64,000 nt of DNA, taken from assembly GCF_005473905.2 (NCBI RefSeq), contig NZ_CP061336.1:2162501-2226500 (forward strand), written 5' to 3'. The number at the start of each line of letters is the position of its first letter. Positions within the stretch are counted from its first letter, which is position 1. The translations under genes and the position numbers were made by a program. Positions 17,755-37,663 of this stretch are shown in pieces. The notes under the pieces were generated by a model, which was not told where the DNA came from, searched no databases, and saw nothing but the letters and a program-made list of their open reading frames with translations. This DNA comes from Ruminiclostridium herbifermentans (GTDB lineage: Bacteria > Bacillota > Clostridia > Acetivibrionales > DSM-1351).

Positions 17755-17875
17755 TAAAGCCTGCAAGATATCATCTTGATACCTCCCAGGCTTTTGTCCT
17801 TCCGTGACACAGCTAAAAGCTGCGAGTTTTCTCTCGGTCACAGGCCAGCTTTACTGCGGAACCCTAGAAAACATT
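17755..17875 (-). promoter_or_regulatory. Guanidine-I (ykkC-yxkD) riboswitch with terminator
   Basis: On the minus strand the aptamer begins CTAGGGTTCCGC (near 17869) and includes GACCGAGAGAAAAC, then GTGTCACGGAAGGACAAAAG, conserved features of the guanidine-I class. A terminator follows: AAAGCCTG...CAGGCTTT enclosing CAAGAT/ATCTTG, then AATTTT (17755-17794). Ligand binding is expected to prevent termination and switch on gdx. Confidence 0.93.
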
Positions 17876-17954
17876 TTAATAGTTTGATATTAGATTTGCA
17901 TGTAAGTTCATTATAATTACTTTTGGTATAATAGTCAATTACTAACTCGAAACT

Positions 17955-33825: not shown

Positions 33826-34242
33826 ATGGACTCAGCGAGTAAGCTGACAGTTTTTTTTGATGACCCTTTTTGGGTTGGTGTTTACGAACGCAGAGTGAAT
33901 AATTTACTTGAGGCAGCAAGAATAGTATTTGGTGAGGAACCAAAGGATTATGAGGTATATTATTACTTATTAAATAATTGGAGTAAATTAAGGTTTAGCC
34001 CACCTGTAAGACAATGTGTAAAGGCAGAGGGAAGAATAAATCCTAAGAGAATGCAGAGAGCAATAAATAAGCAACTATCCCAGACAGGAGTTGGTACTAA
34101 AGCACAGCAAGCCTTGAAGCTGCAGCATGAGCAAGCAGTATTGCATAGAAAAGCGTATAACAAACAAAAATCAGAAGAAGAAAAACTTTTTAAGTACAAG
34201 CTTAAACAACAAAAAAAGAAAGAGAAACACAGAGGGAGGTAA
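33826..34242 (+). CDS. YjdF-family protein (DUF2992)
   Basis: 138 residues. The N-terminus KLTVFFDDPFWVGVYER and following AARIVFGEEPKDYEVY match the YjdF family. The C-terminal third is lysine- and glutamine-rich (EEEKLFKYKLKQQKKKEKH), as in relatives. Some yjdF genes are under the yjdF riboswitch that binds azaaromatic compounds; I looked for it in 33657-33825 and did not recognise it. Function unknown. TAGGAGG precedes ATG. Confidence 0.8.
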   Translation: MDSASKLTVFFDDPFWVGVYERRVNNLLEAARIVFGEEPKDYEVYYYLLNNWSKLRFSPPVRQCVKAEGRINPKRMQRAINKQLSQTGVGTKAQQALKLQHEQAVLHRKAYNKQKSEEEKLFKYKLKQQKKKEKHRGR

Positions 34243-34269
34243 ACATAAACTGTATATAATTATTATATA

Positions 34270-34299
34270 TTGACAAAAACCTGTCTAAAATGCTATATT
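34270..34299 (+). promoter_or_regulatory. Promoter of the trpP-ecf operon
   Basis: TTGACA at 34270-34275, an 18-bp spacer, and TATATT at 34294-34299 preceded by TGC (extended -10). The predicted transcript starts near 34305-34308, immediately before the triplet repeat. Confidence 0.75.
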
Positions 34300-34305
34300 C
34301 AATAT

Positions 34306-34343
34306 AAGTAGAGATGAGATTAGATGAGATTAGACGAGATGAG
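34306..34343 (+). promoter_or_regulatory. TRAP-like binding site and antiterminator arm
   Basis: Seven (G/T)AG triplets occur at exact 5-nt spacing: GAG 34311, GAG 34316, TAG 34321, GAG 34326, TAG 34331, GAG 34336, GAG 34341, separated by AT or AC. This is the recognition pattern of the trp RNA-binding attenuation protein. AAGTAGAG (34306-34313), at the edge of the site, is complementary to CTCTACTT (34471-34478) in the downstream terminator, so protein binding would block antitermination. Confidence 0.7.
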
Positions 34344-34469
34344 AAACAAGCAAGTTGTTTTCTAATAATATGTTTTTGTGATATTTTTCTTGTCAAGAAT
34401 TTGAAAAAATATTGTATTATTTAGTTAGAATATATCGACTTGTGTTGTTTGTTAAAATTAGAATTTCAG

Positions 34470-34506
34470 CCTCTACTTGATAAAATTATTTTGTGGAGGT
34501 TTTTTT
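34470..34506 (+). terminator. Attenuator-type terminator covering the trpP ribosome binding site
   Basis: CCTCTAC (34470-34476) pairs with GTGGAGG (34493-34499), followed by seven T. GGAGG in the 3' arm is the trpP ribosome binding site, seven bases before ATG 34507. Forming the hairpin would both stop transcription and hide the ribosome binding site. Confidence 0.75.
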
Positions 34507-35067
34507 ATGGAAAAAAGAGTTGTTGTTAAAGAAAAAAAATCTGGATTATCAATTTCAGACGTAATTTTAGTGGGTGTTTTGCTTGCAGTAGGTGCAGTGT
34601 TAAAACTCTTTGTAGGGTCTATGTTTACAGTTATGAAACCTAATTTCATAATTGCTATGTATTGTTTAGCAATACTTTTGATTAAGCCTAAATTTATTGA
34701 AGCAGTCGTTATTGGGATTTTAGCAGGTGCTATATGTCAGGTATTTCCAGGTACTCCTTATATAAACTTAATTAGTGAACCTATTGGAGCAATAGTAATG
34801 GTTCTGCTTCTTTATATTCCTATGAGCATTGGTAAGTTCTCGTTAAAACCTATAATTTGTACTTTCTTAAGTACGCTAGCTAGCGGATTTACTTTTATAG
34901 GAGTTCTATATGCGGCTTTTTATTCAGGCGCAAGTGTAACAACTATTCCAATTAGTGTGTTTATAACAATTATACTTGGAACGGCTTTATTAAATTCTAT
35001 AATTGTTCAGATATTATTTATACCATTAAAACTTGCACTAGGACGTGGCGAAACTGTTGCTAATTAA
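34507..35067 (+). CDS. trpP: TrpP-like tryptophan ECF transporter substrate-binding (S) component
   Basis: 186 residues with about six membrane helices. It resembles Bacillus TrpP: FTVMKPNFIIAMYCLAILL, VIGILAGAICQVFPGTPYIN and ISEPIGAIVMVL correspond to the MKPD, GI-x-G-P and DKP blocks of that family as I recall them. It should bind tryptophan in the membrane. The adjacent ecfA1-ecfA2-ecfT genes would supply energy. The TRAP-like leader is an independent reason to assign tryptophan. ATG 34507 follows GGAGG in the attenuator; the TTG at 34477 lies in its loop. Confidence 0.8.
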   Translation: MEKRVVVKEKKSGLSISDVILVGVLLAVGAVLKLFVGSMFTVMKPNFIIAMYCLAILLIKPKFIEAVVIGILAGAICQVFPGTPYINLISEPIGAIVMVLLLYIPMSIGKFSLKPIICTFLSTLASGFTFIGVLYAAFYSGASVTTIPISVFITIILGTALLNSIIVQILFIPLKLALGRGETVAN

Positions 35068-35154
35068 GTTTTGATTATGAATGAGTTGTGTAAAGTTCAA
35101 AAAATTAAAATGCTATAATAATTGGTTTTTATCTAAAATAGAAACGGTGAGAAT

Positions 35155-35994
35155 ATGATTGATTTTAGGGATTTTTCATTTAAGTATAAGAAAAGTGAAG
35201 ATTTTGCGTTAAAGGAAATAAACTTATCTATAGAAAAAGGTGAGTTTGTTGGAATTATAGGGAATAGCGGCGCTGGTAAATCTACATTTACATATGCATT
35301 AAACGGTATTATACCACATCATTTTGAAGGTGACTTTTATGGAGAAGTAAATGTAAATGGACTAGATACAGTAGAGTCTTCGCCATCTCAGCTTGCCTTA
35401 AGTGTAGGCAGTGTATTTCAGGATATTGATGGACAAATGGTTTCTTCAGTTGTTGAAGACGAAATTCTTTTTGGACTTGAAAATTTCGGTGTGCCTCATG
35501 AAGATATTGAAAAGAGAATAACTGACATACTTAAGATGGTAGGAATAGAAGAACTGCGATATAGAAATATCAGCACTTTGAGTGGAGGGCAAAAGCAAAA
35601 GGTCGCAATAGCAGCAGTGGCGGCTCTTATGCCTGATATTCTGGTTTTAGATGAGCCAACAGCAGAACTTGACCCCCAAAGCAGTCTTCAAATTTATAAT
35701 ATGCTGCGTATGCTTAATGAAAAAATGAAGATAACCATTATTGTAGTAGAGCAAAAAATTATGTTGCTCAGTGAGTTTTCAAAACGCTTGCTCATAATAA
35801 ATGAAGGAAGTATATTTTTAGACGGAAAGCCTCATGAGGTGTTAAAGGATACTGAAAAGCTTCGTCAAATAGGAGTTAATTGTCCGAGAGTGGCCACTTT
35901 AGCCACCAATTTAATAGAGAAAAAGTTATATGATGGTCCTGTACCTGTTAATGTTGATGAGGCCGAAGTAATGGTAAAAAATGTTATTTTATGA
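35155..35994 (+). CDS. ecfA1: ECF transporter ATPase subunit A1
   Basis: 279 residues. ABC ATPase with Walker A GNSGAGKST, Q-loop VFQDIDGQ, signature LSGGQKQKVAIA, Walker B DILVLDEPTAELD and a switch glutamine-type VVEQKI. Energises vitamin or amino-acid import with EcfA2 and EcfT on the cytoplasmic face. 87 bases after trpP and in line with it, which implies a dedicated module. Confidence 0.92.
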   Translation: MIDFRDFSFKYKKSEDFALKEINLSIEKGEFVGIIGNSGAGKSTFTYALNGIIPHHFEGDFYGEVNVNGLDTVESSPSQLALSVGSVFQDIDGQMVSSVVEDEILFGLENFGVPHEDIEKRITDILKMVGIEELRYRNISTLSGGQKQKVAIAAVAALMPDILVLDEPTAELDPQSSLQIYNMLRMLNEKMKITIIVVEQKIMLLSEFSKRLLIINEGSIFLDGKPHEVLKDTEKLRQIGVNCPRVATLATNLIEKKLYDGPVPVNVDEAEVMVKNVIL

Positions 35995-36101: not shown

Positions 36102-36902
36102 ATGATTAAATTCAGCAATGTTTCTTTTGCATATGATAAAAATAAAATTCTAGAAAATATAAGCTTTACAATTGAAAAGGGCGAATTTGTTGCTATAGTG
36201 GGCAGAAATGGTGCTGGTAAAACAACACTTATGAAGCTTTTTAATGGACTTTTAAAACCAACTTCTGGAAATATTACAATAGCAAATTTAGACACTAAGC
36301 AGGCAAAAACAAGTGAACTAGCTAAGCATGTTGGATTTTTGTTTCAGAATCCTGACAGACAGATTTGCCAGAATACTGTAAAGGACGAAATTGCATTTGG
36401 CTTGAAATGTGTATTAGATGATAAAAATGAAATAGAAAGACGATGTAAGGAAACCATTGAGAGATTTGGATTTCCAGCTGATAAGGATCCTTTTTCTATG
36501 AGCAGGGGTGAGCGTCAGAAAGTAGCACTTGCTTCAATCATTGCGCTTTCACCTGAAATTTTAGTTCTTGATGAACCTACAACTGGTTTGGATTATAAGG
36601 AATGTATGCATATAATGAATATCATAGAAGAACTAAACCAAAGAGGTACTACTGTAATAATGGTATGTCATGATATGGAGTTGGTTTCAGATTTCGCAAA
36701 GAGAGTAATGGTGATTGGGGAAAAAGGAATATTAGAGGATGATACCTGCAACAAGGTTATGGTTAATTCATCTATTTTAAAAAGAGCATCTCTTGCTGCA
36801 CCGCAAATTGCAGAGTTAGCAATTAGGCTTGGTAATGATTTTCAAGGTGTTTTAACCATTGACGAAATGACTGAAAAAATAGAGAGTAGGTGCAAGGCTT
36901 GA
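36102..36902 (+). CDS. ecfA2: ECF transporter ATPase subunit A2
   Basis: 266 residues. Walker A GRNGAGKTT, Q-loop LFQNPDRQI, Walker B EILVLDEPTTGLD and switch MVCHDME. The signature motif is altered: MSRGERQK replaces LSGGQ, so its composite ATP site with A1 may be weaker. The NPDRQ stretch is typical of ECF ATPases. ATGGAGGTC precedes ATG 36102. Overlaps the start of ecfT by four bases. Confidence 0.92.
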   Translation: MIKFSNVSFAYDKNKILENISFTIEKGEFVAIVGRNGAGKTTLMKLFNGLLKPTSGNITIANLDTKQAKTSELAKHVGFLFQNPDRQICQNTVKDEIAFGLKCVLDDKNEIERRCKETIERFGFPADKDPFSMSRGERQKVALASIIALSPEILVLDEPTTGLDYKECMHIMNIIEELNQRGTTVIMVCHDMELVSDFAKRVMVIGEKGILEDDTCNKVMVNSSILKRASLAAPQIAELAIRLGNDFQGVLTIDEMTEKIESRCKA

Positions 36903-37663
36903 AAGGAATTTTAGAGTATTCTCAAGGTAATACAATTATACATAATTTAAACCCGTTAACAAAAATGCTGCTTGCCTTATTGATTTGTATGAGCAGTTTT
37001 GCAAATGGTAATTTAATTATGGCAGTTGCTATAATAGCTCTGAATGTTATTATTGGGTATATGGCAGGCATTGGAAAGAAATCTGTTTCGGTATTGGTAA
37101 CCCTATTAAAAATAGGACTTATTTTGTTTTTGATACAAGTACTATTAATTAGAACAGGGGATAAGCTGCTGCAATTGCCTCTAAATCTTTACATTACTGA
37201 TGTTGGACTTAAATTTTCAACATTGCTTGTTTTTAGGCTTATAGGTGCAACAATGCCACTAATTATAATGCTTACAGTTACTAAAATGAGTGATTTGACG
37301 AATGTATTGGTACAAAAGCTGCATATACCTTATAAATATGCTTTTGCTTTTATAACTGCCTTACGCTTTATACCTATATTTGAACATGAAATGAATGGAA
37401 TAATAGAATCCCAGACAGCAAGAGGCGTTGAATTTGACACAAAAAATCCAATAAAGAAATTAAAGCTGGTGCTGCCATTATGTGTACCACTTCTGATTTC
37501 ATCAGTAAAACGTATAGAAGGAAGCGCCATATCAGCTGAGTTAAGAGGCTTTAATGTCCGAAAGAGAAACAGTGGCTACAAGAAATACACTTTCAGATTG
37601 AGTGATTATACTGTAATATTAGTATCAATACTTGTTTTTGTTATAAGTGTGGCATTTGTTTAA
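36899..37663 (+). CDS. ecfT: ECF transporter transmembrane (T) component
   Basis: 254 residues, several membrane helices. The coupling-helix motifs ESQTARGVEFD and SAELRGFNV supply the two Ala/Leu-Arg-Gly signatures that contact the ATPases. The start is taken as TTG 36899, overlapping the ecfA2 stop as TTGA with TAGGTG upstream; GTG 36890 is possible but too close to its ribosome binding site. Last gene of the trpP-ecf operon. Confidence 0.9.
   Translation: MKGILEYSQGNTIIHNLNPLTKMLLALLICMSSFANGNLIMAVAIIALNVIIGYMAGIGKKSVSVLVTLLKIGLILFLIQVLLIRTGDKLLQLPLNLYITDVGLKFSTLLVFRLIGATMPLIIMLTVTKMSDLTNVLVQKLHIPYKYAFAFITALRFIPIFEHEMNGIIESQTARGVEFDTKNPIKKLKLVLPLCVPLLISSVKRIEGSAISAELRGFNVRKRNSGYKKYTFRLSDYTVILVSILVFVISVAFV

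Follow-up and report, generated by a model that had tools for sequence, protein, structure and literature searches.

A predicted TRAP-type leader with a Shine-Dalgarno-hiding hairpin ahead of a trpP-ECF operon in Ruminiclostridium herbifermentans

The window analysed here is a 64,000-nucleotide stretch of DNA from Ruminiclostridium herbifermentans (contig NZ_CP061336.1, positions 2,162,501 to 2,226,500), and all coordinates refer to it unless stated otherwise. It includes a cluster of four genes on the plus strand, the first of which (34507-35067) specifies a TrpP-like ECF S component of 186 aa that matched the Pfam family TrpP (PF17099; 39.9 bits, cut-off 27.2). It is followed by genes for two ECF ATPases, ecfA (35155-35994) and ecfA' (36102-36902), both recognised by ABC_tran, and by ecfT (36890-37663), which specifies a CbiQ-type membrane component recognised by CbiQ; matches to the NCBIfam ECF models were below cut-off. 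This one cluster holds every part expected of an ECF transporter of the TrpP kind: the S component, both ECF ATPases and EcfT. The closest named relatives of the TrpP were from the same genus, R. sufflavum (88% identity), then R. cellobioparum and R. hungatei, and a TrpP of this type was found in 10 of the 11 genus genomes, counting this one. In the accessible text of PMC11487621, the TrpP of Bacillus subtilis is treated among the ECF S proteins, and the TrpP family assignment, together with the regulation described below, points to tryptophan as the probable substrate of the trpP-ecfA-ecfA'-ecfT product.

A first, sequence-only reading of this DNA had considered linkage to a dedicated EcfAA'T module to be unusual, but within this TrpP clade such linkage is normal. 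Of 80 related loci, 79 had one or more ECF ATPase genes 3' of trpP and 75 had EcfT; in the five loci lacking EcfT, the contigs end 296-1264 bases past trpP. In L039-L043, five members of the genus, the trpP and ecfA genes overlap or are almost contiguous; in R. herbifermentans they are 87 bases apart. This gap (35068-35154) contains an extended -10-like sequence, TGCTATAAT, which is absent in the nine genus relatives compared, and the ECF module of R. herbifermentans could have a promoter of its own.

Upstream of trpP, and on the same strand, the leader begins with a sigma-A-type promoter at 34270-34299, comprising TTGACA (34270-34275), an 18-nt spacer and TGCTATATT, in which TATATT (34294-34299) carries the TG of an extended -10. 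Its score of 11/12 was the best among 12 promoter-like sites in 1 kb (4.1 expected). The transcript start that this promoter implies lies at about the sequence AAGTAGAG (34306-34313), the 5' arm of a putative antiterminator or anti-SD-hairpin helix. The arm overlaps the first of seven KAG triplets forming a predicted TRAP-type binding site, GAG-AT-GAG-AT-TAG-AT-GAG-AT-TAG-AC-GAG-AT-GAG (34311-34343), with triplets beginning at 34311, 34316, 34321, 34326, 34331, 34336 and 34341 and all spacers 2 nt long; an in-register AAG at 34306-34308 is a possible eighth, weaker triplet. The stretch 3' of the array is A+U-rich. Further downstream, CTCTACTT (34471-34478) is complementary to AAGTAGAG at all eight positions and, judged by conservation, covariation and helix probabilities, would serve as the 3' strand of the antiterminator helix and, extended by position 34470, as the 5' strand of a hairpin at 34470-34506. 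In this hairpin, CCTCTAC (34470-34476) pairs with GTGGAGG (34493-34499), one of the seven pairs being U-G, and a T7 run (34500-34506) leads directly to the trpP ATG at 34507. GTGGAGG, conserved in the genus, is also the trpP Shine-Dalgarno sequence (SD). The promoter boxes, the exact 5-nt steps of the triplets, the arm complementarity, and the hairpin with the SD in its 3' arm had all been described in the sequence-only reading, and each was confirmed to the base.

The hairpin stem lies directly before U7, and so offers the GC-rich stem and U tract of an intrinsic terminator, a class defined also by activity in vitro. A simple terminator scan of 33900-34900 listed no terminator; the hairpin was passed over because its loop exceeds the 8-nt limit of the scan. 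A U run of at least five between SD and ATG was present in 19 of 23 TRAP-type leaders and in one of the 17 T-box leaders that could be parsed (19 tried), and among 18 pattern-picked SD-ATG spacers of the window in two, one of them that of trpP, all of these being raw counts uncorrected for base composition. Transcription termination at the CCTCTAC/GTGGAGG-T7 hairpin is plausible on these sequence features.

The genome carries one mtrB gene, matching PF02081 at 130.4 bits (cut-off 21.3, E 9.5e-38), which disposes of the objection that TRAP might be missing, a point for which the earlier reading had proposed a genome search. In phmmer comparisons with TRAP of solved structure, the protein gave E values of 1.4e-52 (a tandem construct) and 4.4e-26 (1c9s), and the alignments retained EKLDKGE and KIRG, segments in which RNA-contacting residues lie. 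Of 31 mtrB loci, 21 matched a strict motif derived from the EKLDKGE/KIRG stretch, the other 10 deviating somewhere within it. Across the order, mtrB was found in 53 of 58 genomes.

Comparison of the leader with those of relatives, also proposed at the outset, supported a TRAP-type element. All 10 genus trpP leaders retained TTGACA, TATATT, AAGTAGAG, the array, CCTCT(A/G)CT, and GGAGG or GGGGG with a U run. Eight had perfect runs of 7-8 triplets, and the arrays of R. sufflavum and R. hungatei were interrupted by one imperfect triplet. Among 56 trpP leaders from a wider range of genomes, a significant array (no more than 5 of 500 shuffles as good) was present in 22 of 24 from mtrB-positive genomes and 1 of 32 from mtrB-negative genomes, an association with a Fisher p of 2.8e-12, uncorrected for shared ancestry. 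The 56 comprised 50 of the 80 related loci tested for mtrB, minus L072 and L103, which had no upstream DNA, plus eight others; the count excludes repeats from the same genome (L035-L039, L043, L048), a partial match (L049, with an array visible by eye) and a degenerate one (L050). The single array-bearing leader among the 32 was that of G013 (L045), a draft of 140 contigs in which a complete TRAP-type trpP leader stands without a detectable mtrB.

The number of triplets, which had been called unusual, is indeed low, at seven, or eight with the in-register AAG, but orthologous leaders carry 7-10 when gaps are allowed, so that the set lies at the low end of a range rather than outside it. A table in the available part of a review (PMC4347634) gives 9-11 triplets for the TRAP targets of B. 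subtilis.

The pairing of the two arms could be followed beyond the genus, within which the 5' arm was identical in all 10 leaders. Six core arm pairs were standard in every one of the 17 leaders that could be aligned, and covariation was observed at pair 5 (U-A in nine leaders, U-G in one, C-G in seven) and pair 6 (G-C in 16, A-U in one). The perfect eight pairs of the R. herbifermentans leader are partly its own, since pairs 7 and 8 were standard in only 10 and 2 of the 17. When the arms of 11 hand-chosen representatives of 23 leaders were swapped, cognate arms summed to -205.3 kcal/mol, versus a mean of -161.0 (sd 8.7) for swapped arms, and none of 20000 permutations was as good. For single leaders the evidence was weaker: when the 3' region was shuffled 200 times, over 20 shuffles paired as well as the real sequence in six of the 10 genus leaders (4 shuffles in R. 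herbifermentans, 63 in R. sufflavum). The exact core helix, folded before the SD is transcribed, had a predicted mean probability of 0.94-1.00 in 14 of 17 leaders (1.00 in R. herbifermentans), and of 0.24 in G009, 0.81 in G007 and 0.70 in R. papyrosolvens; in these last three, a shifted register gave the best duplex instead of AAGUAGAG:CUCUACU. The claim that the 5' arm competes with the SD hairpin was, in this way, upheld by sequence in 10 of 10 genus leaders and by covariation further out.

Inspection by eye of the folds predicted for 23 leaders showed the SD hairpin in 22, among them all 10 of the genus; the exception was Petroclostridium. In R. herbifermentans the 58-nt stretch that contains it has a predicted energy of -13.7 kcal/mol, and the region 34290-34500 as a whole folds with modest stability (z -1.94; 9 of 200 shuffles as good). 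In the full leader, the SD was predicted to lie in the hairpin with a probability of 0.96 without a block and 1.00 with the array blocked, and the arm helix with a probability of 0.08. As the hairpin is predicted to win at equilibrium even without TRAP, any switch must be kinetic, with the ON state arising during transcription. Blocking of the array had a larger predicted effect in G026, G013, G036 and T. caenicola, where the hairpin rose from 0.02-0.21 to 0.93-1.00; in the last three, the SD was predicted to be paired elsewhere (0.78-0.93) in the absence of a block, and not free.

Given mtrB in the genome and an array that tracks mtrB among relatives, the reading of this sequence as a TRAP-type leader stands, and it is highly probable that the trpP-ecfA-ecfA'-ecfT leader is a TRAP-controlled tryptophan-importer leader in which TRAP frees an SD-hiding hairpin. 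In TRAP-regulated leaders the triplets overlap one strand of a structure that competes with a terminator or SD hairpin, and here AAGUAGAG overlaps triplet 1 and is complementary to a strand of the SD hairpin. At low tryptophan, TRAP would be unbound and AAGUAGAG, at the very start of the newly made RNA, would pair with CUCUACUU, keeping the CUCUACUU strand off the SD and allowing trpP to be transcribed and translated. When tryptophan is plentiful, tryptophan-loaded TRAP would wrap the triplets at the extreme 5' end of the RNA and mask the 5' arm, which would free CUCUACUU, so that CCUCUAC could pair with GUGGAGG and hide the trpP SD. The same hairpin, with U7, may also release RNA polymerase ahead of the start codon.

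An alternative using the same TRAP site is that repression occurs by termination alone, with release in the A+U-rich stretch past the array, and that the SD hairpin is secondary. There is a precedent in B. subtilis, where, in the available text of PMC3913778, TRAP is reported to terminate transcription in vivo when the attenuator hairpin is missing, the sole requirement being an A+U-rich segment downstream, and the R. herbifermentans leader is A+U-rich in the corresponding place. Several leaders outside the genus also carry a separate mid-leader terminator-like hairpin, which is strong in several relatives. Within the genus, however, this hairpin was weak or missing, none passed the thresholds used in the R. 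herbifermentans leader, and the features that are conserved are the SD hairpin and the arm pairing. Termination alone is considered unlikely.

Control of the trpP leader by something other than TRAP, either a T-box, another riboswitch or a tryptophan leader peptide, is suggested by the orthologous operons of mtrB-negative genomes, where a T-box core (simple pattern) was found in 19 of the 32 leaders, compared with 3 of the 24 from mtrB-positive genomes (L055, L059 and L062). At the Rfam gathering score, no T-box was found among 13 trpP loci; at E ≤0.001, a T-box was matched in all six core-bearing loci tried (L059, L060, L066, L070, L074 and L081), one of them mtrB-positive, at 50.6-79 bits, below the gathering score of 93. 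In the R. herbifermentans leader, a T-box or other Rfam element was rejected, as a search of 34240-34540 gave no Rfam match up to E 1, T-box (RF00230) included. A tryptophan leader-peptide attenuator was likewise rejected, as no leader ORF of at least six codons with a tryptophan codon was found in this leader and none was common to the 10 genus leaders; leader ORFs of some single genus leaders contain one or two such codons. With an array that tracks mtrB, non-TRAP control is very improbable here. Among the three core-bearing, mtrB-positive cases, L055 carried both core and array, and L059 and L062 had a core without a significant array. The latter two also showed a GA-rich, triplet-like stretch after the T-box core, near the SD and about 60 bases before trpP, and their leaders may combine T-box and TRAP control.

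Direct blocking of the ribosome by TRAP, which the accessible text of PMC11255114 gives for B. subtilis trpG, trpP and ycbK, was rejected on the position of the array, which ends about 150 nt before the SD (34343 to 34493), the distance being roughly 100-150 nt in the 10 genus leaders, and has only the slightest probability. An origin of the GA-rich periodic stretch as a repeat arisen by chance, or a role as an operator acting in the DNA, is hardly credible, even though the array is by construction an imperfect 5-nt repeat and chains allowing 3-nt spacers do arise elsewhere by chance (L068:10510, L128:3475), as triplets were kept among orthologues while spacer letters and the choice of G or T drifted, and their presence follows mtrB.

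The frequency of such runs bears on chance in particular. Six KAGNN units with at most one mismatch matched three times in the window, the three overlapping one another within the 34311-34343 array, against 0.01 expected from shuffles. In a scan of the whole genome (4,817,678 bases in one contig) for KAG triplets at fixed 2-nt spacing, perfect runs of six and of five triplets occurred only in the trpP leader array, and the reversed control pattern gave none; a chance repeat was rejected on this basis. Across the 11 genus genomes, an array-similarity search with a relative's array as query returned trpP leaders as its only clear matches, and none of 20 loci scored from the many weaker matches had an array (best chain score 3.0).

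Tryptophan synthesis in R. herbifermentans appears to be under a different RNA device, and this, which the sequence-only reading did not cover, is the unusual feature rather than the ECF linkage. The trpE leader of this genome matched the T-box at 80.3 bits (gathering score 93; E 4.9e-17), with UGG (Trp) read at the specifier position. The same specifier reading gave AUC (Ile) for a T-box at 1799-2182 of the window, on the plus strand, which precedes a 941-aa ORF named from its sequence as isoleucyl-tRNA-synthetase-like. All four Ruminiclostridium trpE leaders examined, this one included, have a T-box. Elsewhere in the order, an anthranilate-synthase match was found in 19 of 20 hand-picked mtrB-positive genomes, and a TRAP-like array of 6-12 KAG triplets lay upstream of trpE in 13 of the 19 order-mates examined. 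By locus, 14 of 25 scored carried an array (one of 26 was left out), a count made without shuffles, and the opposite-strand control gave 0 of 25. A T-box before trpE was found in six order-mates (L163-L168, of 16 loci tried), three of the six below the gathering score; the three genus members of this set are all among the six. With TRAP-like arrays in 13 of 19 and T-boxes in six, TRAP control of trpE therefore looks common in the order, judged from the leaders, whereas the genus uses a T-box for trpE. TRAP control of trpE may be the older state, as a comparison across the order, made without a tree, suggests; some trpP leaders of the order also combine an SD hairpin with a distinct terminator in mid-leader. 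TRAP appears to have become specialised to uptake in Ruminiclostridium. A broader proposal is offered tentatively, as a shade short of evenly balanced: that TRAP in this genus is a single-target sensor of free tryptophan governing uptake only, co-transcriptionally, through one hairpin that is both SD mask and terminator; that synthesis is under a T-box sensing uncharged tRNA-Trp; and that TRAP and T-box have been exchanged on one operon across Clostridia.

Two other sets of leaders are close to this one. The trpP-ecf operons of mtrB-negative Clostridia that have a T-box are orthologous and presumably also under tryptophan-supply control, but with a T-box in place of the TRAP array. The TRAP-like arrays upstream of trpE elsewhere in the order differ in that they precede biosynthesis genes, in the position where Ruminiclostridium has a T-box.

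Among known systems, the B. subtilis trpEDCFBA leader has 11 triplets, compared with seven (plus AAG) here, where the gene controlled is that of a transporter; its terminator and SD hairpin are separate, whereas in R. herbifermentans the SD and the U tract belong to one and the same hairpin. In the accessible text of PMC11255114 and PMC3913778, TRAP acts on B. subtilis trpE through both termination and an SD-hiding hairpin, and the two leaders share a remote 5' TRAP site that overlaps one antiterminator strand, with an alternative hairpin forming on binding (predicted here). B. subtilis trpP (yhaG) is likewise a TrpP-family ECF S component under TRAP, as predicted for R. herbifermentans, but there TRAP binds where translation is initiated and keeps the ribosome off directly, a difference in mechanism that the sequence-only reading had not drawn. 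In R. herbifermentans it would act by refolding the leader from a site about 150 nt upstream, and the S component is accompanied by EcfAA'T genes of its own. A 2008 survey of T-boxes marks the TRAP-bearing Firmicutes in a figure legend (PMC2494555). Among the papers listed by a literature search that covered few subscription journals, none dealt with TRAP acting on a trpP-ecf operon of Clostridia. The regulator and the kind of gene are known, and the mode of action, which would differ from that on Bacillus trpP, and the changed regulon would be new; the leader is therefore a variant on a known theme. With this leader, a textbook mechanism would be extended beyond Bacillus to the operon of an ECF importer, on which TRAP would act in another manner. 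It also provides a clear example for comparison of an operon whose regulator, TRAP or T-box, has been exchanged, and of a cell in which two tryptophan sensors divide the work.

These comparisons also raise the question of what TRAP does in relatives that have mtrB but lack both this TrpP and a trpE leader of the TRAP type. Four mtrB-positive genomes without this TrpP had a T-box before trpE (G002, G014, G015 and G020, the last with only a degenerate TrpP-like match). G002, which belongs to the same genus, retains mtrB, and the array-similarity search found no TRAP target in it. Autoregulation of mtrB through a nearby array was rejected, as no adjacent chain of at least six triplets was present in any of the 31 mtrB loci, with flanks of up to 1.5 kb. 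Near mtrB in the R. herbifermentans genome, 6.2 head-to-tail copies of a 94-base unit were observed (L001:608-1187, approximately 3243248-3243827 of the genome; 95% matches), located between a 65-aa ORF adjoining mtrB and a thioesterase-like ORF, and each unit carries inverted arms, CCTCCAC...GTGGAGG. Within the window, a guanidine-I riboswitch aptamer was recognised by Rfam at 17781-17878 on the minus strand (72.7 bits).
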